Shown here one piece after another: positions 11,760 to 38,346 of a stretch of 64,000 bases of DNA. The DNA is from Vitreoscilla filiformis (GTDB lineage Bacteria; Pseudomonadota; Gammaproteobacteria; Burkholderiales; Burkholderiaceae_C), in the NCBI RefSeq assembly GCF_002222655.1, contig NZ_CP022423.1, positions 744,001-808,000 of the forward strand, written 5' to 3'. The notes below the pieces were generated by a model, which worked only from the letters and a program-made list of their open reading frames with translations, ran no database searches and was not told where the DNA came from. The number at the start of each line of letters is the position of its first letter. Within the stretch, counting starts at the first letter, position 1. The translations under genes and the position numbers were made by a program.

Positions 11760-12473
11760 ATGTTGAGTATCGCTGAGAACCTTGAGGCCGTGCGCCAGCG
11801 CCTGGCGCGTGCGGCGACCTGTGCTGGGCGTGCCCCGCAAGCGGTTGGCTTGCTGGCGGTGAGCAAAACTTGTTCGGCTGAGGCTGTGCGGGCGGCGTAT
11901 GCCGCAGGGCAGCGGGCTTTTGGTGAAAACTACGTTCAAGAAGCGTTGGACAAAATCCACGCTTTGGCCGATGTGCGCTCCGAATTGGCGTGGCACCTCA
12001 TTGGCCCGCTGCAAAGCAACAAGACCCGTGTCGTGGCCGAAGCGTTCGACTGGGTTCACAGCGTCGATCGGCTCAAGATTGCTCAGCGTCTGAGTGAGCA
12101 GCGGCCCGTGTGGTTGCCGCCGCTCCAGGTGTGTTTGCAAGTCAACGTCAGTGGTGAGTTGAGCAAAAGCGGCGTGCCGCTTCATGAAGTGGCCGCGTTG
12201 GCACAAGCGGTGGCCGTGCTGCCGCGTTTGCAACTGCGTGGGCTGATGGCCATTCCGGAACCTGCGGATTCTGAGGCCGCGCAGCGCGAGCCCCACCGGC
12301 GGCTCCATGCGTGTCTGATGCAACTTCAGGCCCAGGGTCTGGCGCTCGATACCCTGTCGATGGGCATGAGTGCCGACTTGGAAGCCGCCGTGTTGGAGGG
12401 CGCGACCTGGGTGCGCGTGGGCACCGCTATTTTTGGGGCTCGGGCGCCGCGCTCAGGGCTTGCGCCCCAGTAG
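11760..12473 (+). CDS. YggS/PLPBP family pyridoxal-phosphate homeostasis protein
   Basis: 237-residue single-domain PLP-binding protein with an alanine-racemase-like barrel. The PLP Lys is K36 in GLLAVSKTCS. The family motifs FGENYVQEALDK, WHLIGPLQSNKTR, VNVSGELSKSG and the end motif LSMGMSADLEAAV ... VRVGTAIFG are all present. It buffers PLP and affects amino-acid balance; no enzyme activity is known. The start is the ATG at 11760. Its 3' end overlaps the convergent uraA gene by 21 bases. Confidence 0.93.
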   Translation: MLSIAENLEAVRQRLARAATCAGRAPQAVGLLAVSKTCSAEAVRAAYAAGQRAFGENYVQEALDKIHALADVRSELAWHLIGPLQSNKTRVVAEAFDWVHSVDRLKIAQRLSEQRPVWLPPLQVCLQVNVSGELSKSGVPLHEVAALAQAVAVLPRLQLRGLMAIPEPADSEAAQREPHRRLHACLMQLQAQGLALDTLSMGMSADLEAAVLEGATWVRVGTAIFGARAPRSGLAPQ

Positions 12474-13736
12474 GGCGTGCAGCAGCACGGCGCCGAACGT
12501 CGCGGTGCCGATGCCGCCCAGCGCGAAGCTGCCGAATTGCAGCGTGTAGTCCCCGGTGCCCAGGATCAGGGGGATGGCGGCCACCAGCAAATTGGCGTTT
12601 TCGCGGAAGTCCACGCGGTTGTCCACCCAGATTTTGGCGCCGGCCACGGCAATCAGGCCGAACACCACGATGGACACGCCCCCCATCACCGCCAGCGGGA
12701 TGGTCTGGATCAGCGCGCCGAACTTGGGCGAAAAGCCCAGCACGATGGCCACACCCGCTGCCACCACGAACATCGCACTCGAATAGATGCGCGTGGCGGC
12801 CATCACGCCGATGTTTTCCGCGTAGGTGGTGACGCCCGAGCCACCGATGGCGCCCGACACCATGGTGGCCACCCCGTCGCCGACAAACGCGCAGCCGATC
12901 TTGTCGTCCAAGTTGCGCCCGGTCATGGCGCTGACGGCCTTGATGTGGCCGAGGTTTTCCGCCACCAAAATCAGCGCCACGGGGGCGATGAGCAGCATGG
13001 CGTTGCCATCGAACACGGGGGCCGCAAAATTCGGCATACCCAGCCAGGGTGCGGCGGCCAGGGCACCGAGGTCGATGGGTTTGCCCAGGCCCAGCCCGTT
13101 GGTCAGCACCGCATAGAGGACGCTGGCCAGCAGCAGGCCGACCAAAATCAGCAGCCGTTGCACCATGCCCGATGTGCGCACGGCCACCCAGCCGACGCAC
13201 AGGAAGGTCAGGGCTTGCATCCACTTGTCAAAGTCCGTCGGGGCCATGTTTTTGATGGGAACGCTGGCCAAGTTCAAGCCGATCACCGCCACCACGGTGC
13301 CGGTCACGACGGGGGGCATGAGGCGCTCGATCCAGCGAGTGCCTGCAAACTTCACCAGCACACCGAACAAGGTGTAGAGCGCGCCGCAGGCCATGATGCC
13401 GCCCAAGGCCAGGCCGATGTGGGGGTTGGGGCCGCTCTGGCCCGCATAGCCGGTGGCAGCGATCACCACGCCGATGAAGGCGAAACTGGAGCCGAGGTAA
13501 CTGGGCACTTGGCCACCGACCAAGGCGAAGAAAATCAGCGTCCCCACGCCAGAGGTGAGGATGGCGACGTTGGGGTCAAACCCCATCAACAGCGGTGCCA
13601 AGACGGTGGCGCCGAACATGGCGATGACGTGCTGAAAGCCCAAGGCCACGGTTTGTGGCCAGGCCAGCCGTTCGTCGGGGGCGACGACGCGGCCCGGCTC
13701 GGCCGGGACTTCGCGCCAATGAGGGATGAAGCTCAT
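12453..13736 (-). CDS. uraA: Uracil/xanthine permease, nucleobase:cation symporter-2 family
   Basis: 427-residue inner-membrane transporter with about 14 membrane segments, likely importing uracil with protons. Family marks are FQHVIAMFGATVLAPLLMG near the N-terminus, the ENLGHIKAVSAMTG motif, GGSGVTTYAENIGVMAATR, and PLAVMGGVSIVVFGLIAVAG. The ATG at 13736 has AGGAG 7 bases upstream; an earlier in-frame ATG at 13757 lies before it and is not used. Substrate (uracil rather than xanthine) is inferred from the UraA-like pattern. Confidence 0.88.
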   Translation of the reverse strand: MSFIPHWREVPAEPGRVVAPDERLAWPQTVALGFQHVIAMFGATVLAPLLMGFDPNVAILTSGVGTLIFFALVGGQVPSYLGSSFAFIGVVIAATGYAGQSGPNPHIGLALGGIMACGALYTLFGVLVKFAGTRWIERLMPPVVTGTVVAVIGLNLASVPIKNMAPTDFDKWMQALTFLCVGWVAVRTSGMVQRLLILVGLLLASVLYAVLTNGLGLGKPIDLGALAAAPWLGMPNFAAPVFDGNAMLLIAPVALILVAENLGHIKAVSAMTGRNLDDKIGCAFVGDGVATMVSGAIGGSGVTTYAENIGVMAATRIYSSAMFVVAAGVAIVLGFSPKFGALIQTIPLAVMGGVSIVVFGLIAVAGAKIWVDNRVDFRENANLLVAAIPLILGTGDYTLQFGSFALGGIGTATFGAVLLHALLGRKP

Positions 13737-13885
13737 GACAGACTCCTGCAAAGGCACCGGGTTGGTGCGGGCGGCAGTGTAGGTTCGGTGTGCCCCACAC
13801 TTGAGGCCGCGTGAGCCGGAAGCCTTGGCTTGCTTGGTCTGGATGAGAATCGGAAAATGGGGCGGGACTTTGGTGCCTGTTATGT

Positions 13886-13998: not shown

Positions 13999-16900
13999 AT
14001 GATGTCCATCGCGGGTTGGAAAGTTGCCCAGGCTGAGCTGGCACAAGCGTCCTCCGACACCATCCTCGGCTCGACCGCCACGACGGCGAGTGTGAGTGTG
14101 ACGGGGTCGGCTTCCAGTGCGGTCAATACAGCAGGTGATCAGGATTGGTGGAAGGTGACGCTGTCGGCGGGCACGACGTACACGTTCAAGCTGAACGCGG
14201 GCACGGGTTCGACGTTGGATGCCTACCTGCGGTTGCTCAACAGCAGCGGCACCCAAGTGGGGGTGAACAACGACGCGGCTACGGGCACCAAGAACGCACA
14301 GATCACGGTCAAAGCCACAGTTAGTGGCACGTATTACCTGTCGGCGCAGGGTTACAACAGCACCACGGGAGCTTACGCGCTGTCGGTGGCGGCGACGGAC
14401 ACGGTGCTGGGAACGAAGGCGACGACCGCCAGCGTGGCGGTGAACGGTTCAGCCAGCAGCACGGTGGATTTTGCGGGCGATCAAGACTGGTGGAAGGTGA
14501 CGCTGTCGGCGGGCACGACGTACACGTTCAAGCTGAACGCGGGCACGGGCTCGACGCTGGATGCCTACCTGCGGTTGCTCAACAGCAGCGGCACCCAAGT
14601 GGGGGTGAACAACGACGCGGCTACGGGCACCAAGAACGCACAGATCACGGTCAAAGCCACAGTTAGTGGCACGTATTACCTGTCGGCGCAGGGTTACAAC
14701 AGCACCACGGGAGCTTACGCGCTGTCGGTGGCGGCGACGGACACGGTGCTGGGAACGAAGGCGACGACCGCCAGCGTGGCGGTGAACGGTTCAGCCAGCA
14801 GCACGGTGGATTTTGCGGGCGATCAAGACTGGTGGAAGGTGACGCTGTCGGCGGGCACGACGTACACGTTCAAGCTGAACGCGGGCACGGGCTCGACGTT
14901 GGATGCCTACCTGCGGTTGCTCAACAGCAGCGGCACCCAGATGCTGTCGAACAACGACGCAGCCACGGGCACCAAAAACGCGCAGATCACATTCACGGCG
15001 ACGACCAGCGGCACCTATTACCTGTCCGCACAAGGCAACGGCACATCGACGGGGGCTTATGCGCTGTCGGTGGTGGCCACAGACACGGTGCTGGGCACGA
15101 CGGCGACGACATCAAGCGCGGTCATCAATGGCACGGCCAGCAGCACGGTGGATTTTGCGGGCGATCAAGACTGGTGGAAGGTCACCCTCTCGGCGGGGAC
15201 GACGTACACATTCAAGCTGAACGCGGGCACGGGTTCGACGTTGGATGCCTACCTGCGGTTGCTCAACAGCAGCGGTACCCAGGTGGGAGCGAACAACGAC
15301 GCGGCCACGGGTGATAAGAACGCGCAGATCACGGTCACGGCGACGACCAGCGGCACCTATTACCTGTCCGCACAAGGCAACGGCACATCGACGGGGGCTT
15401 ATGCGCTGTCGGTGGTGGCCACAGACACGGTGCTGGGCACGACGGCGACGACATCAAGCGCGGTCATCAATGGCACGGCCAGCAGCACGGTGGATTTTGC
15501 GGGCGATCAAGACTGGTGGAAGGTCACCCTCTCGGCGGGGACGACGTACACATTCAAGCTGAACGCGGGCACGGGTTCGACGTTGGATGCCTACCTGCGG
15601 TTGCTCAACAGCAGCGGTACCCAGGTGGGAGCGAACAACGACGCGGCCACGGGTGATAAGAACGCGCAGATCACGGTCACGGCGACGACCAGCGGCACCT
15701 ATTACCTGTCGGCGCAAGGCAACGGCACATCGACAGGGGCTTACGCGCTGTCGGTGGTGGCCACAGACACGGTGCTGGGCACGACGGCGACGACATCAAG
15801 CGCGGTCATCAATGGCACGGCCAGCAGCACGGTGGATTTTGCGGGCGATCAAGACTGGTGGAAGGTCACCCTCTCGGCGGGGACGACGTACACATTCAAG
15901 CTGAACGCGGGCACGGGTTCGACGTTGGATGCCTACCTGCGGTTGCTCAACAGCAGCGGTACCCAGGTGGGAGCGAACAACGACGCGGCCACGGGTGATA
16001 AGAACGCGCAGATCACGGTCACGGCGACGACCAGCGGCACCTATTACCTGTCCGCACAAGGCAACGGCACATCGACGGGGGCTTACGCGCTGTCGGTGGT
16101 GGCCACAGACACGGTGCTGGGCACGACGGCGACGACATCAAGCGCGGTCATCAATGGCACGGCCAGCAGCACGGTGGATTTTGCGGGCGATCAAGACTGG
16201 TGGAAGGTCACCCTCTCGGCGGGGACGACGTACACATTCAAGCTGAACGCGGGCACGGGTTCGACGTTGGATGCCTACCTGCGGTTGCTCAACAGCAGCG
16301 GTACCCAGGTGGGAGCGAACAACGACGCGGCCACGGGTGATAAGAACGCGCAGATCACGGTCACGGCGACGACCAGCGGCACCTATTACCTGTCCGCACA
16401 AGGCAACGGCACATCGACGGGGGCTTACGCGCTGTCGGTGGTGGCCACAGACACGGTGCTGGGCACGACGGCGACGACATCAAGCGCGGTCATCAATGGC
16501 ACGGCCAGCAGCACGGTGGATTTTGCGGGCGATCAAGACTGGTGGAAGGTCACCCTCTCGGCGGGGACGACGTACACATTCAAGCTGAACGCGGGCACGG
16601 GTTCGACGTTGGATGCCTACCTGCGGTTGCTCAACAGCAGCGGTACCCAGGTGGGAGCGAACAACGACGCGGCCACGGGTGACAAGAACGCGCAGATCAC
16701 GGTCACGGCGACGACCAGCGGCACCTATTACCTGTCCGCACAAGGCAACGGCACATCGACGGGGGCTTATGCGCTGTCGGTGGTGGCCACAGACACGGTG
16801 CTGGGCACGACGGCGACGACATCAAGCGCGGTCATCAATGGCACGGCCAGCAGCACGGTGGATTTTGCGGGCGATCAAGACTGGTGGAAGGTGACGCTGT

Positions 16901-19900
16901 CGGCGGGCACGACGTACACGTTCAAGCTGAACGCGGGCACGGGTTCGACGTTGGATGCCTACCTGCGGTTGCTCAACAGCAGCGGCACCCAGGTGGCCAG
17001 CAACGACAACGCCACCAGCGGCACATCCAGCGCGCAGATCACCGTCACGGCCACTGCGAACGGAACGTACTACCTTGCAGCCCAAGGCAGCGGCGGCACA
17101 ACCGGCGCCTACGTGCTTGACGTGCTGGCCACAGACACCATCCTAGGCTCCACTGCCACAACCGCCAGCGTTGCGGTGAACGGTTCATCCGGCAGCACGG
17201 TGGATTTTGCGGGCGATCAAGACTGGTGGAAGGTCACCCTCTCAGCGGGGACGACGTACACATTCAAGCTGAACGCGGGCACAGGTTCGGTGCTGGATGC
17301 GTACCTGCGGGTGCTCAACAGCAGCGGCACCCAGGTGGCCAGCAACGACAACGCCACCAGTGGCACATCCAGCGCACAGATCACTTTCACGGCCACGGCC
17401 AACGGAACGTACTACCTTGCAGCCCAAGGCAGCGGCAGCACAACCGGCGCCTACGTGCTCGACGTGCTGGCCACCGACACCATCCTGGGCTCTACCGCCA
17501 CGACCGCCAGCGTGGGCATCAACGACTCGGCCAACAGCACCGTGGACTATGCAGGTGAGCAGGACTGGTGGAAGGTGACTCTCTCGGCCGGTACCACCTA
17601 CACCTTCGACCTGAAAGCCCGCAGCGGATCGCTGTTGGATGCGTACTTGCGCTTGTTGGACAGCAACGGTGTGCAACTGAAGGTCAATGACGCCGCGTCC
17701 GATGGCGCCCTGGATGCCCAAATCACCTTCACCGCGACCCGCAACGGCACTTACCACCTGTCCGCCCAAGGGGCTAGCGGGACGAGTGGCGCTTACGTGC
17801 TGTCTGTGCAGGCCCTCGATGCGGTCAAAGGCTCCACCGCCACCACCGACAGCGTGACCCTCAACGCCACCGCCGTCGAAAGCACCGTGGACTTTGCAGG
17901 GGATCAGGACTGGTGGAAAGTCACCCTCACAGCAGGCACGACGTACACGTTTAAGCTCGGTGCCGGGACGGATTCGACGCTGGATGCGTACCTGCGGGTG
18001 CTCAGCAGCACGGGGGCGTTGCTCAGCGTCAACAATGACGCCTCCTCTTCGACAACGGATGCCGAGATCACGTTCACGGCGGGCAGCAGCGGCACGTATT
18101 ACCTCTCGGCCCAGGGCAATGGCACCTCCACGGGGGCTTACACCCTGTTCGCCACCACCGACACCATCGTGGCTTCGTCCTCGACCGCATCGATCCAAGC
18201 GGTCAACGCCTCCGCCAGCGACAGCGCCATCGACTTCAGGGGCGACCAAGACTGGTGGAAAGTCTCCCTGGTGGCCGGAACCACCTATGTGTTCGAACTG
18301 AAGGCCTCGGCGGGCTCGTCTCTGGACGCTTTCCTGCGCCTCATCGATGACAGCGGCAGCCAAGTCGGCGCCCGAGACGGTGGGTTCAGCTCCGGGACGG
18401 ACGCCAAAATCACCTACACCGCGACCACCAGTGGCACCTACTACCTGTCGGCGCAGGGGGCTGATGGCACCACGGGGGACTACACCGTGTTCGCCACCAC
18501 CGACTTGATCGCAGGATCGACGGAAACCACGTCCACGGTGGGACTCGATGGCACGGCCAGCACCGACGTCATCGACTATGCCGGCGACCAAGACTGGTGG
18601 ACCGCCACCCTGACCGCCGGCACCACCTATGTGTTCTACCTGTCCGCATCGACGGACTCGTCCTTGGATGCCTACCTGCGGTTGCTTGATGGCAACGGGG
18701 CGGTGCTGGAAACCAACAACAACCAGTCATCGGACACGGCCAATGCCCGCGTTGTCTACGAGGCCACGCAGAGCGGCACCTACTACCTGTCGGCACAGGG
18801 GGTCAGTGGATCGCTCGGGGCCTACGACGTGTTCACCATCGTCGATGCCGTGCCTGGCTCCACCGCCACCACCTCGGAACTCAGCACAGCGCCGGGGGCA
18901 GCCAGCTCGGGCACCATCGATTACGGCACCGACCAAGACTGGTGGAAAATCACCCTGGTGGCCGGGCGCACCTACACCTTCCGCTTGGGGGCCGATGTGG
19001 ACTCTCCGCTCGACGCCTACTTGCGCCTGGTCGACCAAGACGGCACCCAATTGGCTGCGGGCAATGACAGCACCAATGGATCGGTGGCCTCCAAGGATGC
19101 GCGTGTGACCTACACCGCGACCTACAGCGGCACTTACTATGTTTCAGCGCAGGGCTACAGCGGGTCGGAGGGGAACTATGTGATGTCGGTGGGTTCGGAC
19201 GCCATCGACGGTTCGGTCAACACCACGGCATCCCTGACGGTCAACGGAGCGGCTGGCTCCAGCGACATTGACGAGTCAGCCGACCAAGATTGGTGGCGCA
19301 TTCGCCTGTCGGCGGGCTCGTCCTACACCTTCCGGCTCACAGCCCCCTCGGGCTCCAGTTTGGATCCGTACCTGCGTTTGCTCAACAGCACGGGTGTGGA
19401 GTTGGTGGTCAACGATGACAGCGGATCGTCCACACAAGATTCGCTCATCTCGTTCACGGCCACGGCCACTGGGGTGTACTACCTGTCTGCCCAGGGGGCT
19501 GGCACCACGTTTGGCAGCTACAACATCCAGGCGTTCGGGGATGCCATCGCCGGCTCCACCGACACCACCGCCGTGCTGACCATGAACACCACGGGCACCA
19601 GCACCATCGACACCGTGGGCGATCAAGACTGGTGGAAGGTGACCCTGACTGCCGGCACGGCCTACGAATTCCAACTGCAAGCGGCGGATGGTTCGTCCAT
19701 TGATGCCTACTTGCGCTTGCTGAACGCATCGGGCAACTTGGTGACGTTCAACGATGACAACGGTTCCTTGCGCGATTCGCTGTTGATCTACACCCCGACG
19801 ACGTCCGGCACCTACTACCTGTCGGCGCAGAGCCGGGACGTCACCGGGGATTACGTGATTTCGGCGATGGCTTCGGATGCGATTCCGGGCACGATCGAAT

Positions 19901-21639
19901 CGACCGTCACGCTGGATGTGAATGGTGTGGCCGGGGCCAGCGTGGTCGATTTGGCCACCGACCAAGACTGGTGGAAGATCACCCTGACCGCTGGGGCCAC
20001 CTACACCTTCCTGATGAAGCCGCAGACCGGATCGACGCTGGATCCCTACCTGCGGCTGATGAACAGCGAAGGGCAAGAGCTGGCCAGTAACAACGACCGC
20101 AACGGCAGCACCGTCAACGCTTACATCACCTACACCGCGACCACCAGCGGCACGTATTTCTTGGCGGCGCAGTCCAACAGCGGTGCTTCGGGGGATGCGC
20201 TGGCCGGGTTGTACACCATCAAAGCCAACTCGGTGGACATCATCGACGGCGCCAATACCACCACGTCGGTGCTGGTGATCAGCGGGGCCGAGGGCTCCAG
20301 CATGATCGACAGCAGCACCGACCAAGATTGGTGGAAAGTAGAACTGACGGCTGGCACGGCCTACACCTTCCGCCTCAGCGCGGCCGCAGACTCCCCGCTG
20401 GATGCCTACCTGCGCTTGCTCAACAGCGATGGCACCGCAGTGGCCTCCAACGATGACAGTGGCAGCAGCAAAAACTCGGTCATCTCCTACACGGCCAAGA
20501 CCACGGGGGTGTTCTACCTGTCGGCTCAGGGTTATGGGGCCTCGACAGGGGCGTATGTGATCTCGGCCACCTCAACGGCGTCCGACAGCATCCCAGGCAC
20601 CCGCGCCACCCGGGCGGTGCTCACCGTCGGTGGGGATGCGGGCAGCAGCACGGTGGACGCCACCTCCGACCAAGACTGGTGGAAGGTCACCCTGGTGTCG
20701 GGCACCACGTACACCTTTGACCTGAAGGCGGCAGCAGACTCGTCGTTGGACAGCTACCTGCGCCTGCTCGACAGCAACGGCGTGCTCCTCACCTACAACG
20801 ATGACAACAACGGAGCCGACGATGCGCAAATCATCTACACGGCGACCAAGAGTGGCACGTTCTACCTGTCGGCCCAGGGTTACGGTTCTTCGACCGGCGC
20901 TTATTCGCTGACGGCCACCGCCAATGCGGCTGACACCATCCCGGGCAGCGCTTCGACCACGGCCACACTCACGGTCAACGGCGAGGCGGGCAGCAGTGCG
21001 ATCGATTCGACCGGGGATCAGGATTGGTGGAAGGTGCGTCTGAAGGTGGGGGTGACCTACGTTTTCACCCTCTCGGCAGATGTCGATTCGACTTTGGATC
21101 CCACCTTGCGCCTGCTGAACAGCGCCGGCACCAAACTGACCTCCAACGACGACATCAACGACAGCAACAAGAACTCGCGCATCACGTACACGGCATCGGC
21201 CACGGGCACCTACTACCTGTCGGCCCAGGGGTACAACAGCACGGGGGCTTACACGATTGCGGTTGTGTCCAGTGGGGCTGCGAGTTTGGCCCAGGCTGCC
21301 AGCGAGACGTCCACGTCCACCCCAGACGCCGAGGTGTTCAGCTTCACCGCTACCCGCAGCGAGGTGACCACGATCCGCGACTTTGACACCGGCACGGATC
21401 GGATCGAAGTCACCAGCAGCAACTTCGGCGGGCTGAAGGTGGGGGCGCTGTCCGCTGCCAATTTCCAAGCGGCGGGTTCGACGCTCACCAGCCGCGCCGC
21501 CGTTTTCCTCTACGACAACACCACAGGCGCACTCGCCTTCGACGCCGATGGCATCGGGGCAGGGGCCGCCGTGCAAATCGCCCAACTCACGGGCGCTCGC
21601 ACGCTGCGTGCGTCGGACATCTTCGTCGTCAACGGCTGA
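13999..21639 (+). CDS. Giant PPC-repeat protein, predicted type I secretion substrate
   Basis: 2546 residues. There is no N-terminal signal peptide. Residues 20-2420 are 21 tandem units of about 114 residues with the pattern DTxxGSTATT...DQDWWKVTL-AGTTYTF-L-A-LDAYLRLL-S-G...GTYYLSAQG...GAY, which resembles the pre-peptidase C-terminal (PPC) beta-sandwich. The last 110 residues (EVFSFTATRSEVTTIRDFD ... VFLYDNTTGALAFDADGIG ... LTGARTLRASDIFVVNG) look like the C-terminal secretion region of RTX-type proteins. No GGxGxD nonapeptide and no cysteine are seen. Directly downstream are an ABC exporter and a membrane-fusion gene, so export to the cell surface is the simplest reading. Role (adhesin, sheath or matrix protein) is inference. 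Start: ATG 13999 after gaaagg, or ATG 14002. Confidence 0.9.
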   Translation: MMSIAGWKVAQAELAQASSDTILGSTATTASVSVTGSASSAVNTAGDQDWWKVTLSAGTTYTFKLNAGTGSTLDAYLRLLNSSGTQVGVNNDAATGTKNAQITVKATVSGTYYLSAQGYNSTTGAYALSVAATDTVLGTKATTASVAVNGSASSTVDFAGDQDWWKVTLSAGTTYTFKLNAGTGSTLDAYLRLLNSSGTQVGVNNDAATGTKNAQITVKATVSGTYYLSAQGYNSTTGAYALSVAATDTVLGTKATTASVAVNGSASSTVDFAGDQDWWKVTLSAGTTYTFKLNAGTGSTLDAYLRLLNSSGTQMLSNNDAATGTKNAQITFTATTSGTYYLSAQGNGTSTGAYALSVVATDTVLGTTATTSSAVINGTASSTVDFAGDQDWWKVTLSAGTTYTFKLNAGTGSTLDAYLRLLNSSGTQVGANNDAATGDKNAQITVTATTSGTYYLSAQGNGTSTGAYALSVVATDTVLGTTATTSSAVINGTASSTVDFAGDQDWWKVTLSAGTTYTFKLNAGTGSTLDAYLRLLNSSGTQVGANNDAATGDKNAQITVTATTSGTYYLSAQGNGTSTGAYALSVVATDTVLGTTATTSSAVINGTASSTVDFAGDQDWWKVTLSAGTTYTFKLNAGTGSTLDAYLRLLNSSGTQVGANNDAATGDKNAQITVTATTSGTYYLSAQGNGTSTGAYALSVVATDTVLGTTATTSSAVINGTASSTVDFAGDQDWWKVTLSAGTTYTFKLNAGTGSTLDAYLRLLNSSGTQVGANNDAATGDKNAQITVTATTSGTYYLSAQGNGTSTGAYALSVVATDTVLGTTATTSSAVINGTASSTVDFAGDQDWWKVTLSAGTTYTFKLNAGTGSTLDAYLRLLNSSGTQVGANNDAATGDKNAQITVTATTSGTYYLSAQGNGTSTGAYALSVVATDTVLGTTATTSSAVINGTASSTVDFAGDQDWWKVTLSAGTTYTFKLNAGTGSTLDAYLRLLNSSGTQVASNDNATSGTSSAQITVTATANGTYYLAAQGSGGTTGAYVLDVLATDTILGSTATTASVAVNGSSGSTVDFAGDQDWWKVTLSAGTTYTFKLNAGTGSVLDAYLRVLNSSGTQVASNDNATSGTSSAQITFTATANGTYYLAAQGSGSTTGAYVLDVLATDTILGSTATTASVGINDSANSTVDYAGEQDWWKVTLSAGTTYTFDLKARSGSLLDAYLRLLDSNGVQLKVNDAASDGALDAQITFTATRNGTYHLSAQGASGTSGAYVLSVQALDAVKGSTATTDSVTLNATAVESTVDFAGDQDWWKVTLTAGTTYTFKLGAGTDSTLDAYLRVLSSTGALLSVNNDASSSTTDAEITFTAGSSGTYYLSAQGNGTSTGAYTLFATTDTIVASSSTASIQAVNASASDSAIDFRGDQDWWKVSLVAGTTYVFELKASAGSSLDAFLRLIDDSGSQVGARDGGFSSGTDAKITYTATTSGTYYLSAQGADGTTGDYTVFATTDLIAGSTETTSTVGLDGTASTDVIDYAGDQDWWTATLTAGTTYVFYLSASTDSSLDAYLRLLDGNGAVLETNNNQSSDTANARVVYEATQSGTYYLSAQGVSGSLGAYDVFTIVDAVPGSTATTSELSTAPGAASSGTIDYGTDQDWWKITLVAGRTYTFRLGADVDSPLDAYLRLVDQDGTQLAAGNDSTNGSVASKDARVTYTATYSGTYYVSAQGYSGSEGNYVMSVGSDAIDGSVNTTASLTVNGAAGSSDIDESADQDWWRIRLSAGSSYTFRLTAPSGSSLDPYLRLLNSTGVELVVNDDSGSSTQDSLISFTATATGVYYLSAQGAGTTFGSYNIQAFGDAIAGSTDTTAVLTMNTTGTSTIDTVGDQDWWKVTLTAGTAYEFQLQAADGSSIDAYLRLLNASGNLVTFNDDNGSLRDSLLIYTPTTSGTYYLSAQSRDVTGDYVISAMASDAIPGTIESTVTLDVNGVAGASVVDLATDQDWWKITLTAGATYTFLMKPQTGSTLDPYLRLMNSEGQELASNNDRNGSTVNAYITYTATTSGTYFLAAQSNSGASGDALAGLYTIKANSVDIIDGANTTTSVLVISGAEGSSMIDSSTDQDWWKVELTAGTAYTFRLSAAADSPLDAYLRLLNSDGTAVASNDDSGSSKNSVISYTAKTTGVFYLSAQGYGASTGAYVISATSTASDSIPGTRATRAVLTVGGDAGSSTVDATSDQDWWKVTLVSGTTYTFDLKAAADSSLDSYLRLLDSNGVLLTYNDDNNGADDAQIIYTATKSGTFYLSAQGYGSSTGAYSLTATANAADTIPGSASTTATLTVNGEAGSSAIDSTGDQDWWKVRLKVGVTYVFTLSADVDSTLDPTLRLLNSAGTKLTSNDDINDSNKNSRITYTASATGTYYLSAQGYNSTGAYTIAVVSSGAASLAQAASETSTSTPDAEVFSFTATRSEVTTIRDFDTGTDRIEVTSSNFGGLKVGALSAANFQAAGSTLTSRAAVFLYDNTTGALAFDADGIGAGAAVQIAQLTGARTLRASDIFVVNG
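14056..21270 (+). repeat. 21 tandem PPC-like repeats (114-aa / ~342-bp unit)
   Basis: Unit starts 14056, 14398, 14740, 15082 and so on are exactly 342 bases apart through 17134, then vary slightly. DQDWW occurs once in every unit (unit 11 has EQDWW). Units 1-10 are close copies; units 11-21 keep the framework but differ widely in sequence. The gradient fits older units at the C-terminal side and recent amplification toward the N-terminus. Confidence 0.9.
15082..17133 (+). repeat. Six near-identical 342-bp units (units 4-9)
   Basis: Units starting at 15082, 15424, 15766, 16108, 16450 and 16792 differ by only a few bases (for example ccgcacaaggc/ggcgcaaggc and gataag/gacaag). Unit 9 diverges in its second half. 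Such repeats can change copy number by homologous recombination and are a likely assembly trouble spot. Confidence 0.9.
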
Positions 21640-21662
21640 CGATCGACACTCCCCCCGTTCTT

Positions 21663-21690
21663 CGGCCGGCTTCGCGCCGGCCGTTTTCTT
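21663..21690 (+). terminator. Intrinsic terminator between secretion substrate and its exporter
   Basis: Perfect 8-bp stem cggccggc / gccggccg with loop ttcgc, followed by ttttctt. It begins 24 bases after the stop of the giant gene and ends only 6 bases before the exporter ATG. It may stop most transcripts and let a fraction read into the exporter genes. Confidence 0.8.
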
Positions 21691-21696
21691 CCTGCC

Positions 21697-23865
<2,169 letters not shown>

Positions 23866-23867
23866 GC

Positions 23868-25208
23868 ATGTCCTCCCCTTCGACCCCACCGGCTTGGCTG
23901 GTGCCCTTTCTTCCCCCCGCGCAAGCCCTGGAACTCGACGGCCCCAGCCCGCGCAGCCGTGCCGTGCTCTACACCTTGGTGGCCTTGGTGTTGGTGAGTG
24001 TGCTGTGGTCGGCGCTGGCGCAAATCGACAAAATGGTCATTGGTCGAGGGCGCATCGTCGTGCCCACGCGCAACTTGGTGGTGCAGCCGCTGGAGACCGG
24101 CGTGCTGCGTTCCATCGACGTCCACATCGGGCAAAAGGTGGCCAAGGGCACGGTGCTGGCCACCCTCGACCCGACCTTCGCCACCGCCGACGCCAACGCC
24201 CTGACCTCGCGCAGCCAAGCCTTGGGCTGGCAAGTGCAACGCCTGAACGCCGAAGCGCACAGCGACCGCACCGCGTTCCGCGCCTCCGCGCCCGGCGATG
24301 GGCCCGAAGCGCAATTGCAACGCCAGTTGTTGGACGAACGCCGCGCCATGTACGCCGCCAAAGTGTTGCAGTACGAGGAAACGATTCGGCGCCTTCAGGC
24401 TTCGCAGGAAACCAACCGCCAGGATCAAGAAGTGCTGGCCCGGCGCCTCAAGGCGTTGCAACAGCTCGAAGACATGCACCGCGAGCTGGCAGATGAGCGT
24501 TACATCGCCCCGGCGCAAAAGCTGTCGATGGAAGAGCGACGCATTGACGTGGAACGCGAGCACCGCCAAGCGGTCAACCGCGCCCAAGAGTTGGGGCGTG
24601 AGTTGGCCTCGACCCGCGCCGAGCTGCTGGCCTTCCAAAAGACCTTCCGCCAAGATGCGATGGAGCAGCTCACCAGCGTGACCCAGCAGCGCCGTGAGAC
24701 CGACGAGCAACTCGCCAAAGCCCAACTGCGCGCCCGCTTGGTGACGCTGACAGCGCCGGAAGACGCCATCGTGCTGGCGATCGAAAACCGCTCGATTGGC
24801 TCGGTGATGAAAGAGGCGGAACCGTTGTTTTCCCTCGTGCCGCAAAACCAGACGCTGGAAGCGGAGGTGGAAATCACCCCGTCGGAAATCGCCGACGTGC
24901 GGGTAGGCGATACGGTGCGCCTCAAACTGGACGCCTATCCGTTCCAAAAACACGGCGCCGCCCAAGGCAAGATCATCGCCCTGACCCCGGACGCGCTGAC
25001 GCGCCAAGGGGCCATGGGGGAAAACATCTCCTACTACATGGCCCGGGTGGCGTTCACCCACGTGAAGCTAGAGCAGTTGCCGGCTGCGCCCACGCTGCTG
25101 CCGGGCATGACCCTGTCGGGTGAAGTGGTGACGGGCCAGCGCTCGGTGCTGTCCTTCTTCACGTACCCGATCTGGCGCGTCATGGACGAGTCCCTGCGGG
25201 AGCGTTGA
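23868..25208 (+). CDS. Type I secretion membrane fusion protein (HlyD family)
   Basis: 446-residue periplasmic adaptor with a single membrane segment (AVLYTLVALVLVSVLWSALAQ, about 30-52). A lipoyl-like half-motif follows (VVQPLETGVLRSIDVHIGQKV), then a long coiled-coil hairpin (about 145-300, rich in Arg/Glu/Gln) and a C-terminal beta-barrel ending with GMTLSGEVVTGQRSVLSFF, typical of HlyD/PrtE. ATG 23868 has AAGGAG upstream and starts 2 bases after the exporter stop. No TolC-like outer-membrane gene is adjacent, so a shared TolC is presumed. The 3' end overlaps the convergent nhaR-like gene by 29 bases. Confidence 0.9.
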   Translation: MSSPSTPPAWLVPFLPPAQALELDGPSPRSRAVLYTLVALVLVSVLWSALAQIDKMVIGRGRIVVPTRNLVVQPLETGVLRSIDVHIGQKVAKGTVLATLDPTFATADANALTSRSQALGWQVQRLNAEAHSDRTAFRASAPGDGPEAQLQRQLLDERRAMYAAKVLQYEETIRRLQASQETNRQDQEVLARRLKALQQLEDMHRELADERYIAPAQKLSMEERRIDVEREHRQAVNRAQELGRELASTRAELLAFQKTFRQDAMEQLTSVTQQRRETDEQLAKAQLRARLVTLTAPEDAIVLAIENRSIGSVMKEAEPLFSLVPQNQTLEAEVEITPSEIADVRVGDTVRLKLDAYPFQKHGAAQGKIIALTPDALTRQGAMGENISYYMARVAFTHVKLEQLPAAPTLLPGMTLSGEVVTGQRSVLSFFTYPIWRVMDESLRER

Positions 25209-26103
25209 CGCCTTGCAGCAGGCGCTGCACCAGCGGATGCATGACGCGCTTTTCGGTGCCGATGGCCCAGAACGCTTCTTCCACACCCGTGCAACGCCCG
25301 AGCAGGCGCACGCCGTAGGTGTCGCACAGTTCATCGCCCACCAGCTCGGCGGCGGGAAACACCCCCAGGCCGCCTGCGCCGAAGGTTTTGAGCAACGCGC
25401 TGTCCTGAAATTCACCGACGACTTGCGGGCGCAGGTTGTGGCGCTCGAACCAAGCGTCCAGTGCGGCGCGGGTGGTGGCGTGGGCGCTGGGCAGCAGCAC
25501 GGGCAGGCGTTGCAGGCTGTGGGGGAAATCGGCTTGCGCGGCAGCGTCCACCAGCGTGGGCGTGCCGTACCACGCCAGGGCCGATGCGCCGAGCCGGTGG
25601 CTGTAGAGCCGCAGCGTGCCGTGCGGCGGCGGGGCGGGCCGATCCGCCAAGACGACATCCAAGCGGTGCAGCGCCAGTTGCGCCAACAGGCCGTCGAAGG
25701 CATCTTCGTGGCAGAGCAGCCGCAGGTGCGGTTCGGCCAACACCGGCAGCATCAGGCGATGCACCACGAGTTTGGGCAGGCTGTCGGCCACGCCCACGGC
25801 CAGGCGAACCACGGGCGTGGTGGCGGCGTCGCGCACCCGGTCGGGCAATTGCTGGCCGAGTTGGAAAATCAGCTCCGCTTGTTCGAACGCGGCTTGCCCG
25901 GCTTCCGTCAAAGCCAGCCCGCGCCCGGCGGGTTTGAACAGCGCGTGGCCCAGAGACTGTTCCAACTCTCGCACCTGGGCGCTGACGGTTTGCACCGCCA
26001 GGCCCAAGCGCTCTGCTGCGCGTGCCATGCCCCCTTCCTTGGCCACCAGCCAGAAGTAGTGCAGATGGCGATAGCTGAAGCTTGGCGTTTGAGCGGTGAT
26101 CAT
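25180..26103 (-). CDS. nhaR: LysR-family regulator, NhaR-like
   Basis: 307-residue LysR regulator. The N-terminal helix-turn-helix reads HYFWLVAKEGGMARAAERLG followed by AVQTVSAQVRELEQSLG, very like NhaR (HLYYFWMVAREGSVARAAE as I recall). A LysR substrate-binding domain follows (about 95-300) with LAVGVADSLPKLVVHRLM. E. coli NhaR activates nhaA for Na+/H+ antiport; no antiporter is next to it here, so the target is unknown. It is divergent from the 26227 gene, with a 123-base gap between them. Confidence 0.8.
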   Translation of the reverse strand: MITAQTPSFSYRHLHYFWLVAKEGGMARAAERLGLAVQTVSAQVRELEQSLGHALFKPAGRGLALTEAGQAAFEQAELIFQLGQQLPDRVRDAATTPVVRLAVGVADSLPKLVVHRLMLPVLAEPHLRLLCHEDAFDGLLAQLALHRLDVVLADRPAPPPHGTLRLYSHRLGASALAWYGTPTLVDAAAQADFPHSLQRLPVLLPSAHATTRAALDAWFERHNLRPQVVGEFQDSALLKTFGAGGLGVFPAAELVGDELCDTYGVRLLGRCTGVEEAFWAIGTEKRVMHPLVQRLLQGVNAPAGTRP

Positions 26104-27756: not shown

Positions 27757-28236
27757 GCGGGCGGGCTCCACCACACGCTGCTGGGCGTCGTAGCCCTTGT
27801 CGGCGATGAGCGTGGAGCCTTCGGGCACATCACCCAGCAGTGCATCGGCCCCAACCAAGTCGCGGGCTTGTCCCTCGGTGAGCTGGAACGCCGTTGGATA
27901 GCACCTGAGCGCGCCAGATGCACGCTGCGCAACACGCCGACGATGGCATGGCCTAGCACGCCTAAGTCGAGCCTGTGCGCATCAGCTTTCACACAGCACA
28001 CCGGAGTCCTTGATCAATCGTGGCAGCACGGTGATCATTCCCCCCAGGGCCAAGCAGCCACGTGGCTATGACAAGCACCTGTATCGCGCACGTCGTGCGG
28101 TGGAGAACTTCTTTGCCAAGTTCAAGCAGTACCGCGCCATTGCCACACGCTACAAAAAGACCACCTGTAACTTTTTTAGGGGAGTTCTCTTAGCTTCATC
28201 TCTCATCTGGCTGGCTTGATTTATGACACGCCCTAG
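27757..28236. mobile_element. Scrambled remnants of an IS5-family element
   Basis: Two transposase pieces lie head to head. On the minus strand, 27757-27905 encodes TAFQLTEGQARDLVGADALL and on through IADKGYDAQQRVVEP, the middle of an IS5-type DDE transposase. On the plus strand, about 27990-28220 encodes VIIPPRAKQPRGYDKHLYRA, RRAVENFFAKFKQYRAIATR and a stop, the C-terminal third including the DDE glutamate region. In an intact element these would be consecutive on one strand, so one piece is inverted. ggcttgatttatgacacgcc at 28214 onward may be the right terminal repeat; I find no matching left end. The element is dead. Confidence 0.75.
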
Positions 28237-28655
28237 TATCCTAAACACCCTTTCACGAACCCTACTGCGGCACCCACTGCGGCACCACGTGAACTACCCT
28301 CAAGACGACCACCAACTGAGTCAATGACAGCAGGTGCCAAACCCCTTTGAGCACAATTACCAATTGCGGTGATCGCCTGATTTGAAAGATAAACAGGTTG
28401 TGGTGAAAAACCCATGCTGCGCAAACCAGAGTCCGGATACATAAATCTAGACTGACTTGTGCTTGTGGGCTGCTGAGCTCTTTGATAGTAAGAGGCATTG
28501 CGCTGAGCCTCTCGCTCGCTCGCCATTCGCTGTTGTTGCGCCAGGTACTGCTGACTTGGCTGAAGGGTGCTACCGTAGCCGTACTGCTGCGCAGAGGCGC
28601 CCCCTCCGGAGATAGTAAGCACCACTGCAGAAATTCCGAGCAACGAGAGCTTCAT
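28233..28655 (-). CDS. Secreted small protein with Gly-zipper-like tail, unknown function
   Basis: 140 residues. A signal peptide (MKLSLLGISAVVLTISGGG, cut near ASA-QQ) precedes a Gln/Tyr/Ser-rich middle and a C-terminal GAAVGAAVGFVKGCLGY. The alternating Gly/Ala stretch is like glycine-zipper membrane segments. Two Cys (NCAQRG and KGCLG) could form a disulphide. ATG 28655 has AGGAG upstream. The stop codon TAG comes from the ccctag at the edge of the IS end, so the protein may have been cut short by the insertion. Base composition is clearly lower in GC than the chromosome around it. Confidence 0.6.
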   Translation of the reverse strand: MKLSLLGISAVVLTISGGGASAQQYGYGSTLQPSQQYLAQQQRMASEREAQRNASYYQRAQQPTSTSQSRFMYPDSGLRSMGFSPQPVYLSNQAITAIGNCAQRGLAPAVIDSVGGRLEGSSRGAAVGAAVGFVKGCLGY

Positions 28656-28789
28656 GGTTTACTCCTGCTAAAGTCAGGCTCAAAGTATTACGCACGATGT
28701 AAGTTGTGTCAATGCTGAGTTTTTTTATCTGGTATTCGGGTGGTATGTAAATACTTGAGCATACACTCGTAACTCTTGTCGGGGGAGAT

Positions 28790-29461: not shown

Positions 29462-29473
29462 TCACGTTCTTGG

Positions 29474-29989
29474 ATGTGCAAGAAGAGCTGGTGCGGCTTG
29501 GTAGCCACTATATTTTCTGTATGCGCGGTAGCGCAGCTTCCTCCTGTTGTGCGTGATTTTCCGGAAGCTGGTGGGGTTACAATTCCGGCATGCCAAGATC
29601 ACCCCATCAGCCCTGACGGGCGCAGAGCCTTCTTTGGTGTAGAGGTTAATAGATGCTTTTCCAGTAGTGGCGATCCAGGAGTTTACATTGTTGGCTTTTA
29701 CATGATAAATGGGGTATCTCCTGCACTTGACGCCGGCCTCAAACTTGGCAGCAGAATAAAAATTGTTCGAGGTTGCCCCGTTAATAAACCCTCTGAGCTG
29801 CGACGGATTATTAAAACCACCGCCCCCGGTAGTGGCGTTTTTTTTGAAGTAGAGAACTCCTCAGGTCAGGTATATAGTTTATTGATACGAACTTTGGAGT
29901 TTGAGCCTTCTGATGAGCTGAGGTTGGATATGCCTGCCTTAAGAAAATGTGAGACGATCGGTCTAAAACAAGCGCCCTACCTTTACTAA
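29474..29989 (+). CDS. Secreted PDZ-domain-like protein
   Basis: 171 residues. A signal peptide (CGLVATIFSVCAVAQL, cut near AVA-QL) leads to a region with two Cys (PACQDH, NRCFSS), then a PDZ-like fold: GFYMINGVSPALDAGLKLGS RIK (about 75-97) and a ligand-type LRRIIKTTAPGSGVFFEVEN. No protease domain is present. PDZ modules bind C-termini or act as adaptors in envelope protein quality control. No clear ribosome site precedes ATG 29474; coupling to the upstream gene is likely. Confidence 0.6.
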   Translation: MCKKSWCGLVATIFSVCAVAQLPPVVRDFPEAGGVTIPACQDHPISPDGRRAFFGVEVNRCFSSSGDPGVYIVGFYMINGVSPALDAGLKLGSRIKIVRGCPVNKPSELRRIIKTTAPGSGVFFEVENSSGQVYSLLIRTLEFEPSDELRLDMPALRKCETIGLKQAPYLY

Positions 29990-30560: not shown

Positions 30561-30980
30561 ATGCTAATTCAACTCACATATGCAAGCCGCGCCTCTGTTG
30601 AGGTGACGCCTCAAGTGGTTCGCGATATTGCAGAAAAATCGCAGAAAAACAATTCAGCGGTTGGTATTACCGGTGCCTTGTGTTATTCGAATGGGATTTT
30701 CCTTCAAAAACTGGAAGGTGATCGACGATTTGTCAGCCGTGTTTATCACAAAATACAAAGCGACGCCCGCCATGCAGAGGCCGTTATCGTTGATTATTCG
30801 GAGATGGATTGCCGTGATTTTACGGGCTGGGGCATGGGGTTCATGGTCGCAACAAATGAGAATCAAGAGCTGTTTTTAAAATACTCCACAACGCACGAAT
30901 TCAATCCTTATTTGATGAGTGCAAAGGCGCTCCGGCTGTTTTTCAACGAAATCAAGGAAAACGTTCGTTGGTTAAAATAG
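30561..30980 (+). CDS. Short BLUF-domain blue-light photoreceptor
   Basis: 139 residues, a single BLUF domain that binds FAD. The photocycle residues stand at the spacing of AppA: Tyr7 (LTYASR), Asn31 (NNSAVGITGAL), Gln49 (FLQKLEG), Trp90 and Met92 (GWGMGF). The C-terminal helices (about 95-139) have no output domain, so it must act through a partner, as PixD and similar short BLUF proteins do. No EAL/GGDEF gene is nearby. ATG 30561 lies 7 bases after AAGGA; GTG 30558 is less well spaced. The 3' end overlaps yejF by 29 bases. Confidence 0.88.
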   Translation: MLIQLTYASRASVEVTPQVVRDIAEKSQKNNSAVGITGALCYSNGIFLQKLEGDRRFVSRVYHKIQSDARHAEAVIVDYSEMDCRDFTGWGMGFMVATNENQELFLKYSTTHEFNPYLMSAKALRLFFNEIKENVRWLK

Positions 30981-32856
30981 GCGGTGTCACTTTCGGGGTG
31001 GCGTTGTGCCGCCACCCTTTTGCCACCGCCCCCATCAAGCGCCGCGTGTACTCCTGCTGCGGGTTCAGCAAAATGTCTTCTGCCGACGCCTGCTCGACCA
31101 CCTCGCCTTCTTTCATCACCAGCACTTCGTCGGCCATGAAACGCACCACGGCCAAATCGTGGCTGATGAAAACGTAGGCCAAACCCAACTCGTCTTGCAA
31201 GTCTCGCAGCAGATTCAGCACCTGGGCTTGCACGGACACATCCAATGCACTCACCGCCTCGTCCAACACCAGCACTTCGGGGTTGAGCGTCAAACAGCGC
31301 GCAATGGCGATGCGCTGGCGTTGCCCGCCCGAAAACTCGTGCGGGTACTGCTCCAGCGCTTCCTCCGGCAACCCCACTTTGTGCAGCAGCGCCCGCGCTC
31401 GCGCCAAACGCTCGGCTTCATCGGCACCGATGCGGTGGATGCGCATCGGCTCCAACAGCGTTTGCGCCACCGTGAAGCGCGGGTTGAGCGAGGCATACGG
31501 GTTTTGAAACACGATCTGGATGCGCTGGCGCATCGCTTGGCGCTCGCTTGGGCTCAGGGTCAACAGGTTGCGGTCGTGGAAAAACACCTCCCCACCGCTC
31601 GGTTCGTGCAGGCGCAGCAGCGTCAACCCCATCGTCGTTTTGCCTGAGCCGGATTCGCCCACCACGCCCAGCGTGTGCCCCCGGCGCAGCGTGAAGTTCA
31701 CCCCTTGCACGGCCTTGAATTCACGCTGGCCCCACAGCCCCGTTTTGATGAAAAAACGCTTGGCCAGCGCCCGAGCTTCCAGCACCACGGGCGCGTTGGC
31801 GTCTTTGGGAGGAGTCCCCCTCTCCCCGACCCTCTCCCACGAGGGGAGAGGGAGTAAGGAAGCCCCTCTCCCCTCGTGGGAGAGGGGTTGGGGAGAGGGG
31901 GACGCCCCAGCCATGTGCGCCTCAATCACCGGCAGCCGCGCTGGCCGCTCGTGCAGCGAAGGGCGGCAGGCCAACAGCGCTTGCGTGTAGGCATCCTGCG
32001 GGCGCGTGAACACCGCCCCGGCCCAGCCCGATTCGCGCACCGTGCCGTGGCGCATCACCACCACGCTGTCGGCGATCTCGCCCACCAGCGCCAGATCGTG
32101 GCTGATGAACAGCATCGACAGCCCGAGCTTGGCCTTCAAGCGCGCCAACAGTTCGATGATTTGGCGTTGGATCGTCACGTCCAGCGCCGTGGTCGGCTCA
32201 TCGGCGATCAACAGTTTGGGTTCGCAGGCCAGCGCCATGGCGATCATCACCCGCTGCTGCTGCCCGCCAGACAACTCATGGGGATAACTGTTCAAGCGCC
32301 GCGCCGGTTCCGGAATGCCCACCTCGGCCAGCAGTTCAGCCGCCCGCGCCAGTGCCGCCCGCCGACCCATCTTCAGGTGCAGCCGCAGCGGTTCGATGAG
32401 CTGTTCGCCGATGGTGAACACCGGGTTGAGGGAGGATATCGGGTCTTGGAAGACGCAAGCGATGTCCCGCCCGCGCAGTGCGCGCAGGGTCGCCGGGGCG
32501 GTTTGCAGCAGATCCCGCGCCGCGCCGCCCGGCGGTTGCCAGAGGATGCGGCCTTGGCAGCGGGCGTTGTCCGGCAGCAGGCCGACGATGGACATCGCCG
32601 TCACGCTTTTTCCCGAACCGGACTCACCCACCAGCGCCACCGTGGTGTTCACCGGCACCGTGAAGCTCACCCCCTGCAAACCCCGGCCCACGGCTTCGAC
32701 GTGCTGCGGCTGGCCGCGCTCATCCCGCTCCAGCTCGAAACCCACGCGCAGTTCTTGCACGTCCAACAGCGTGGGCGGAGGTGTCCAGACCGTTGCGTCG
32801 GGCGAGGCGCCCGACCAAATCAGCGGGGCGGGGAGTTCCATTTCGGGGAGATTCAT
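30952..32856 (-). CDS. yejF: Oligopeptide-type ABC importer, fused dual ATPase (YejF-like)
   Basis: 634 residues, two ATPase domains in one chain. Domain 1 has Walker [24 protein letters not shown] and [13 protein letters not shown]. Domain 2 has [23 protein letters not shown] and [13 protein letters not shown]. The linker between them carries an in-frame palindromic repeat (31816-31901). The C-terminal tail ([10 protein letters not shown] onward) is longer than the family end I expect and overlaps the BLUF gene, so its native stop may have been lost. ATG 32856 overlaps the yejE stop (ATGA). It powers peptide or related solute uptake with YejB and YejE. Confidence 0.9.
31816..31901. repeat. 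86-bp palindromic repeat inserted in the yejF linker
   Basis: Left arm 31816-31852 and right arm 31863-31901 are nearly exact reverse complements (ccccctctcccc...acgaggggagaggg), separated by about 10 bases. Translated on the minus strand it adds about 29 residues including SHEGRG and [11 protein letters not shown] without a stop. It resembles short palindromic elements that are usually intergenic in proteobacteria. Confidence 0.85.
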
Positions 32857-33908
32857 GCCTGACCCTTCAGCTTGGGATCGAGCGCATCGCGCCAGGCGTC
32901 GGCCATGAGCGAAAACGCGGTGACGAACACGGCCATGAACACCGTGGCGGTGGCCAGTTGCCACCAGTGGCCGAGGATCAGCTCGCTTTGGGCTTCGGCC
33001 AACATCGTGCCCCAGCTCACTTGGTCGATGGGCACCCCCAGGCCCAGGTAGGACAGGATGACTTCACTCTTGATGAACCCCACCACCATCAAACTCATGC
33101 GCACCAGGATGACGTGGCTGATGTTGGGCAAGATGTGCTGGAACATGCGGGCGCTGGGGCTGGCACCGATGGCCTCAGCGGCGCGCACGTAGTCGCGTGA
33201 GCGGTGTTTCATGAATTCGGCGCGCACTTGGCGGTACAGGCCCGTCCAGCCCACCAGCCCGAGGATCACCACCACCGTCGTCAAGCCCCGGCCGAACACG
33301 GCGGCGAAGGCGAAGATCAACAAAATGTCCGGCACAGCGGTGAAGACGTTGTAGACCCACTCCAGCACGTCATCCACCCAGCGGCCGAAAAAGCCCGCCA
33401 ACGCGCCCAGCAGCGTGCCGATGCCCGTGGCCAGCACCGCTGCCAACACCCCGACGAACACCGAAATCTCCGTGCCTTTGACGGCCTTGGCCAGCACATC
33501 GCGGCCCATGCGGTCGCCGCCCAGGGGCAGGGTGTCGGCGCGCACCGGGTCGGCGCTGCGGTAGTGCTTGGCGCGTTCGGCCCATTCGGCGTAGCGCGGC
33601 GCCAGTGGGTCGATGTCGGTCAAATCGACGTTGGGCCCGCTGGGTTGAATCGCTCCTTCGGCGGCGTCGGGCGGGCGGGGGCCGAGAACGTGAGGTGGTG
33701 CGCTGGGCACGCCGACTTCTTGTTGCCACTGCCGCGCCACCAGCCCGCTGGCCGAGGCCACGATGAGCAGCAGGAACGCCAGCACCACGCCCAGGCTCAC
33801 CAAGCCGACGCGATCCCGCCGAAAACGGCGCCACGCGGCACGCCAAACGCTGTCGGAGCGGGGGGGAGACACGGTGGCGGGTGGGGTTGCGGTTGTTGTC
33901 GGCATCAT
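32853..33908 (-). CDS. yejE: Oligopeptide-type ABC importer permease (YejE-like)
   Basis: 351-residue inner-membrane permease. After a cytoplasmic start (RFRRDRVGLVSLGVVLAFLL) comes a periplasmic insert typical of YejE/DppC (LTDIDPLAPRYAEWAERAKH), then LPLGGDRMGRDVLAKAVKG. The permease signature is in EAIGASPSARMFQHILPNI. About six membrane segments are present. Start and stop overlap yejB and yejF by 4 bases each, so the three are translationally coupled. Confidence 0.9.
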   Translation of the reverse strand: MMPTTTATPPATVSPPRSDSVWRAAWRRFRRDRVGLVSLGVVLAFLLLIVASASGLVARQWQQEVGVPSAPPHVLGPRPPDAAEGAIQPSGPNVDLTDIDPLAPRYAEWAERAKHYRSADPVRADTLPLGGDRMGRDVLAKAVKGTEISVFVGVLAAVLATGIGTLLGALAGFFGRWVDDVLEWVYNVFTAVPDILLIFAFAAVFGRGLTTVVVILGLVGWTGLYRQVRAEFMKHRSRDYVRAAEAIGASPSARMFQHILPNISHVILVRMSLMVVGFIKSEVILSYLGLGVPIDQVSWGTMLAEAQSELILGHWWQLATATVFMAVFVTAFSLMADAWRDALDPKLKGQA

Positions 33909-38344: not shown

Positions 38345-38346
38345 CA

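Follow-up and report, generated by a model that had tools for sequence, protein, structure and literature searches.

Introduction

A repeat cargo that is not of the RTX type but is handled by an exporter with a C39-like domain has a known precedent in the SiiE/SiiF system of Salmonella SPI-4. SiiE is a giant protein of repeated β-sandwich domains with a C-terminal signal, and the exporter SiiF has a C39-like N-terminal domain (PMC12607715, PMC5466336). SiiE contains 53 BIg domains, two types of calcium sites, and an N-terminal coiled coil, and the system includes the accessory proteins SiiA and SiiB. The calcium sites in the Ig-type repeats aid secretion and rigidity, and an RTX-like role has been proposed for them (PMC5466336). 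RTX domains in cargos and C39-like domains in exporters can be correlated with each other (PMC8277102), and SiiE/SiiF is an exception to this correlation (PMC12607715). PPC (pre-peptidase C-terminal) domains are substrate-binding modules of secreted enzymes; the one in the collagenase VhaC is a collagen binder in which aromatic and acidic residues are important (PMC8799719).

In this report, we describe a three-gene cassette in a stretch of 64,000 nucleotides from Vitreoscilla filiformis (the window; positions 744,001 to 808,000 of contig NZ_CP022423.1), to which all coordinates refer unless a contig or locus is named. The cassette encodes a cargo with 21 PPC units, a HlyB-like ABC exporter, and a HlyD-type adaptor. 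We favor, with moderate confidence, its interpretation as an operon-like type I secretion system (T1SS) cassette, probably horizontally acquired, that exports the PPC cargo as a multivalent adhesive or matrix fiber. The giant non-RTX cargo, its repeated β-sandwich domains, its C-terminal signal, and the type of exporter are all features shared with SiiE/SiiF. In contrast to SiiE, the cargo is built of PPC units, starts its first unit after about 20 residues, and ends in an RTX-type C-terminal domain. No bacterial Ig family was found among the Pfam matches of the cargo, there is no room for a coiled coil, and only three genes are present where the SiiE system has accessory components. Searches of the open-license literature gave no description of a T1SS cargo that consists purely of PPC units and no co-occurrence of "pre-peptidase C-terminal" with "type I secretion".

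Results

The PPC Array of the Cargo

The cargo gene (13999..21639, forward strand) encodes a protein of 2546 residues (259.5 kDa, pI 4.1) that is acidic and rich in Thr, Ser, Ala, and Gly. The initial annotation described a cysteine-free protein that consists almost entirely of PPC-like units, each with a DQDWW or EQDWW motif, and this description is borne out. The protein contains no cysteine, and the Pfam model PF04151 (PPC) matches it 21 times (604 bits for the whole protein), with each of the 21 units scoring at least 30.0 bits against a curated gathering cutoff of 25.9. The units, of approximately 342 nucleotides each, occupy 14059..21276 (forward strand). Unit 11 has EQDWW and the other 20 units have DQDWW, and the 21 DWW motifs are spaced 113–120 residues apart. 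Eighteen positions are invariant in all 21 units, including Q28, D29, W30, W31, and D54, and D23 and D27 are nearly so. The four aspartates D29, D54, D23, and D27 are candidate calcium sites only.

The predicted structure of the units has the β-sandwich fold of solved PPC and collagen-binding domains, and the PPC identity first proposed from the letters of the DNA is thus supported by both the Pfam profile and the fold. The AlphaFold model of the units has a mean pLDDT of 70.9 and a pTM of 0.54, with linker residues 114–119 below 50. Using VIA-align, model residues 118–342 were well covered by the collagen-binding domains of the clostridial collagenases ColG and ColH (PDB entries 2o8o and 3jqw), which are protease accessories, at 15–17% identity. 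A sequence search of the PDB with the PPC units gave no convincing match. Neither a catalytic domain nor a catalytic remnant was found in the cargo by Pfam. The matches to GBD_IRG7_N, Por_Secre_tail, PepSY, RHIM, UPF0176_N, IcmT_TraK, and BSAP5i were attributed to composition or overlap, since they lie inside the PPC array and all but GBD_IRG7_N lack a stretch that passes by itself. Ahead of the first unit there are about 20 residues, and the highest Kyte-Doolittle mean (19 residues) within the first 60 residues is 0.73, in agreement with the earlier statement that no classical signal peptide is present.

The repeat order of the array is far beyond chance, and TRF reported a single array at 14137–17669 with a period of 342. 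Units 4–8 (15085..16794, forward strand) are identical in protein sequence and 98.5–100% identical in DNA sequence, and their differences are therefore all synonymous. These five units would have arisen by recent tandem duplication or gene conversion. Units 13–21 have mutual protein identities of 42–57%. Our reading is that of an old array, one part of which was apparently expanded recently, with the protein presumably under selection.

A C-Terminal Secretion Domain without RTX Repeats

The last 104 residues of the cargo (21325..21636, forward strand) form a C-terminal T1SS domain that is 46, 42, and 46% identical to the cargo ends of the orthologous cassettes L018, L020, and L022, respectively, with phmmer E-values of about 1e-11 to 1e-13. 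These three proteins and the database protein P0205 are RTX cargos of T1SSs that share the domain, but they differ from the window cargo in having RTX nonapeptides ahead of it and other passengers. The window cargo has no GGxGxD motif, including in the 120 residues ahead of the domain, and a Ser/Thr/Ala-rich linker occupies the nonapeptide site of the other three. The cargo was therefore rejected as an RTX protein, and the initial proposal of an RTX-type C-terminal region lacking nonapeptides is supported. A four-row profile of the domain and its preceding stretch matches serralysins, alkaline protease, and mannuronan epimerases in the PDB, a reach that is due in part to the RTX columns of the L018, L020, and L022 rows.

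A sample of 300 genomes of the order was searched with the domain by itself; 24 of them (including that of V. filiformis) match at E ≤ 1e-10, with 53 matches besides that of the window. A protein-database search with the domain returned one match (P0205), and among 85 listed database homologues (P0205 and the 84 PPC homologues discussed below) 16 match it at E ≤ 1e-3. In total, 73 other holders of the domain were examined: the 53 matches, 3 proteins from cassette loci, 1 from the same genome, and the 16 database proteins. L227, which begins at a contig end, was set aside from the motif count. In 72 of the 72 testable holders, at least one GGxGxD lies either in the 120 residues ahead of the domain or among the first 12 residues of it, a proportion that may be favored by a domain model whose rows are mostly RTX proteins. 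Within the V. filiformis genome, a small RTX protein (PF00353; L217:9196-10179, reverse strand, at about 1.795 Mb of contig C1) has the same C-terminal domain, and no exporter is evident among the open reading frames (ORFs) of the surrounding 18 kb.

The Exporter and the Adaptor

Directly after the cargo, the initial annotation placed an ABC exporter and a HlyD-type adaptor, and both were confirmed. The exporter (21697..23865, forward strand) has TIGR01846 as its best NCBIfam model, and HlyB is its nearest solved relative, with residues 17–719 aligned to residues 10–705 of HlyB. T16, in the N-terminal C39-like domain of the exporter, adjoins the first aligned residue and corresponds in position to HlyB Y9, which stands in for the catalytic cysteine of C39 (PMC8277102). 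Ser or Thr occurs at this position in 10 of 10 aligned orthologues. The C39 site is thus degenerate, and an active C39 exporter acting on a double-glycine leader was rejected because the position of the catalytic cysteine is Thr. The adaptor (23868..25208, forward strand) is matched by TIGR01843 at 300.7 bits (cutoff 208.65). Its reading frame is open from a GTG at 23841, and the ATG at 23868, 2 nucleotides after the exporter stop, is the more likely start. A TolC-like gene is unlinked (outer-membrane efflux protein pair at C1:3069251-3070465). At the gene level, the components of a T1SS are therefore present, with the exporter and adaptor beside the cargo and TolC elsewhere in the genome.

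Twenty loci with orthologous exporters were examined, and 18 of these have a long ORF upstream (L019 and L030 do not). By motif count, 13 of the 18 upstream ORFs are without GGxGxD and are likewise exceptions to the RTX–C39 correlation, although some may not be cargos (that of L021 has Sel1 repeats, and that of L034 has 11 cysteines). Given these ORFs and the SiiF/SiiE precedent, we do not regard a C39-like exporter with a non-RTX cargo as exceptional in itself. Among the orthologous exporters, those of L026–L029, L031–L033, and L035 (Bradyrhizobium and one Acetobacteraceae metagenome-assembled genome) stand beside ORFs of 1367–2229 residues without GGxGxD. Of these ORFs, that of L027 was scanned and contains DUF4082, cadherin-like, and DMFA2_C domains.

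Other transport genes were noted in the V. filiformis genome. At L125 (C1:354000-373000), an HlyD match (291.7 bits) lies beside a 608-residue ORF that by eye resembles an ABC exporter, with a glycosyltransferase-like gene alongside (also by eye) and no evident adjoining cargo. An outer-membrane efflux protein is found with equal scores at C1:1824489-1825019, C1:2259136-2259666, and C3:27898-28428, the last on the small contig C3. Membrane-fusion-type matches lie nearby, and the pattern points to a mobile or repeated cassette.

Orthologous Cassettes with Other Passengers

In a FastTree tree of 32 exporters, the window exporter groups with those of L018, L019, L020, and L022 (support 1.0), to which it is 66–71% identical. 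The exporters of L010–L017, from the same genus and family, fall apart from it and are at most 43% identical. The gene order cargo–exporter–adaptor is common to the window, L018, L020, and L022, and passengers have been exchanged within these orthologous cassettes. The cargo body is RTX in L018; an M23 peptidase, Ig-like domains, and RTX in L020; and one PPC, five Calx-β domains, and a serralysin C-terminus in L022. In the more distant cassette L038, whose exporter is 59% identical, the cargo has seven PPC units, four Big_5 domains, and a clostripain domain, and the C-terminal domain of the window cargo was not found in it by a phmmer scan.

Between the cargo stop and the exporter there are a hairpin with 8 G-C pairs and, after it, TTTTCTTCCT (21663..21683, forward strand), and this hairpin fits a terminator pattern (the scan covered the window hairpin). 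Hairpins of different sequence are found at the same place in L018, L020, and L022, with z-scores of -2.73, -4.80, and -5.73, respectively. The hairpin may control the dosage of cargo relative to exporter.

Occurrence of PPC Arrays

PPC was found at E ≤ 1e-9 in 11 of 200 genomes of the order, including that of V. filiformis, and the window genome is the only one of them with several PPC matches in one frame; the other 10 have one per frame, under a cutoff that misses weaker units. The genus relative G009 has a PPC pair in one 788-residue frame. The V. filiformis genome itself has only one other PPC match at E ≤ 0.001, a single copy in a 485-residue frame. From 7993 scored candidates of a protein database, at least 84 homologues were listed, and the following counts refer to these. 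Thirty-six have at least 10 PPC units (counted with our own profile), 4 are at least 90% PPC, 34 lack cysteine, and 34 lack GGxGxD. Freedom from cysteine and PPC arrays are, by these counts, not unusual. About 39 also have a peptidase domain (clostripain, matrixin, and others, by precomputed Pfam accessions), with PF01457 and PF00082 counted as what we take to be peptidase families.

The earlier view that PPC otherwise occurs as a single add-on does not hold, given the G009 pair and the 36 listed homologues. That a pure PPC array is unfamiliar was too strong a statement, since multi-PPC proteins are common among the matches listed; the near-pure form is confined to 4 of the 84, and a protease domain is often present. 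Tandem arrays like that of the cargo are found in P0001, P0002, P0007, and P0021 (19, 24, 20, and 12 units, respectively), and P0005, like L038, combines several PPC units with clostripain. The four near-pure arrays among the matches listed resemble the cargo in that the first unit starts at residue 3–18 and cysteine is absent, but they lack its C-terminal domain at E ≤ 1e-3. Conversely, the listed PPC proteins that have this domain differ in that RTX motifs precede it. Among the proteins examined, a near-pure PPC array joined to this secretion domain without RTX is found only here.

Genomic Setting

For the housekeeping protein MnmA, the best-matching named relatives come from Ideonella (86% identity), which probably places the host near Ideonella within the Burkholderiales. 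The cassette ends at the adaptor, since the next gene to the right (LysR, 25180-26103) is on the opposite strand. On the left lies a PF00860-family permease (12453..13757, reverse strand), which was matched at E ≤ 1e-80 in 13 of 15 genus relatives, and 17.2 kb from it lies an OppDF-type ATPase gene (30952..32964, reverse strand). In 7 of 8 loci examined in the relatives, the two are separated by 10 nucleotides to 2.3 kb; in the eighth, the contig ends first. The cassette is absent from the corresponding sites. The contrast in spacing indicates that the segment arrived, or was shuffled, at the permease–OppDF junction, and the cassette was probably gained horizontally. The segment holds the cassette, LysR, an Alx/TerC gene, a DDE transposase remnant (28010..28219, forward strand; PF13586 at 28.0 bits and PF01609 at 21.3 bits, both just short of their cutoffs of 29.2 and 23), low-GC ORFs, and a BLUF protein. 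LysR and Alx/TerC genes adjoin in 6 of 11 LysR loci of the relatives. A foreign base composition of the cassette was rejected (GC 0.62–0.65 at 14–25 kb versus 0.59–0.68 at 8–14 and 25–28 kb), and base composition dates no arrival of the segment.

The small ORFs at 28233-29989 have a GC content of about 0.50 and are probably foreign; those of 223 and 171 residues gave no match in Pfam, NCBIfam, or PADLOC. The BLUF blue-light sensor (30558-30980, forward strand; PF04940, 94.4 bits) lies in the low-GC part. Two paralogous SBP_bac_5 genes stand in tandem beside Opp genes at 36521-40152 (forward strand), and at least two copies also lie at this place in 6 of the 7 genus relatives whose stretch includes Opp genes (three in L152). 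No Rfam match at the gathering threshold was found in the window, and PADLOC gave none in the four ORFs tested.

Discussion

By analogy with VhaC, FibA, and SiiE, the most likely role of the cargo is that of a multivalent adhesive or matrix fiber, an inference like the surface fiber, adhesin, or sheath protein of the initial annotation. The cargo would be synthesized without a signal peptide, its C-terminal domain would dock on the HlyB-like exporter, and the C39-like domain would perhaps tether the unfolded chain. With HlyD and the unlinked TolC completing the channel, the cargo would emerge C-terminus first, and the PPC units would fold outside the cell, perhaps driven by calcium. Located at the surface, the long multivalent protein could then adhere to an insoluble polymer or to neighboring cells, and may work in the manner of SiiE.

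Several observations weigh against this interpretation. The exporter reaches 650.9 bits with TIGR01846, below the cutoff of 725.55 for the HlyB subfamily, and it is named HlyB-like only. In L019, a member of the same exporter clade, the position directly upstream of the exporter holds no cargo; a long ORF with five GGxGxD motifs is read in the opposite direction, and the ORF after the adaptor, which has two GGxGxD, is incomplete at the contig end. The window hairpin is modest when taken alone, as 11 of 200 shuffles fold as well (z = -1.88). The AlphaFold model is only moderate, so that a stiff rod is no more than a possibility. The exporter may have other clients, since the C-terminal domain of the cargo recurs in a second protein of the genome. 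Finally, no LapG homologue (PF06035) was matched in the genome and there is no room for a retention module, which leaves the fiber without an evident anchor on the cell. For the same reasons, no PF06035 match and an N-terminal stretch of about 20 residues ahead of the array, the cargo was rejected as a LapA-type adhesin, and it may simply be released from the cell.

The frequent pairing of PPC units with peptidases among the listed homologues, and the clostripain of L038, would fit a cargo that is the substrate-binding remnant of a T1SS PPC-protease whose catalytic domain was lost, now acting as a noncatalytic competitor, shield, or binder, or decaying. We consider this unlikely. The reading frame is intact across 2546 codons, the five protein-identical units differ solely at synonymous sites, Pfam finds no catalytic remnant, and the homologues that are at least 90% PPC provide parallels for an array of this kind.

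It is likewise improbable that the protein covers the cell as a sheath or S-layer-like coat instead of reaching outward as a fiber. In the spore cuticula of Myxococcus, the PPC part of FibA is a dominant protein (PMC3236237), S-layer proteins of other bacteria are exported by T1SSs (PMC4648471), and the acidic, Thr/Ser/Ala/Gly-rich, cysteine-free repeat composition would suit a coat, but no anchoring domain was seen and little sequence precedes the first unit. An ordinary soluble exoprotein that scavenges nutrients, its PPC units binding a polymer outside the cell so that this is released or sequestered, is very unlikely: the substrate-binding role of PPC in secreted enzymes (PMC8799719) and the missing LapG-type retention system speak for it, but no catalytic domain was found in the cargo.

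As a more tentative addition to the fiber interpretation, the PPC array may have replaced RTX. The secretion domain would have kept its sequence and lost its nonapeptides because it is now the calcium-dependent folding of 21 PPC units that pulls out the chain. This is doubtful but possible; the nearest structural relatives of the units are collagen-binding domains, some of which were solved with calcium. If true, the cassette would be a natural demonstration of a swap of passenger and ratchet behind one exporter.

The cassette resembles those of known giant secreted adhesins, but the brick differs and the usual calcium repeats are absent. Within one exporter clade there are RTX cargos as well as a cargo that shares their C-terminal domain and has no RTX, which offers a natural comparison of whether exporters with C39-like domains need RTX repeats or whether any module that folds outside suffices. 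The repeat bricks of giant secreted proteins now include the PPC/collagen-binding fold, which the papers cited here handle as an appendage of proteases.
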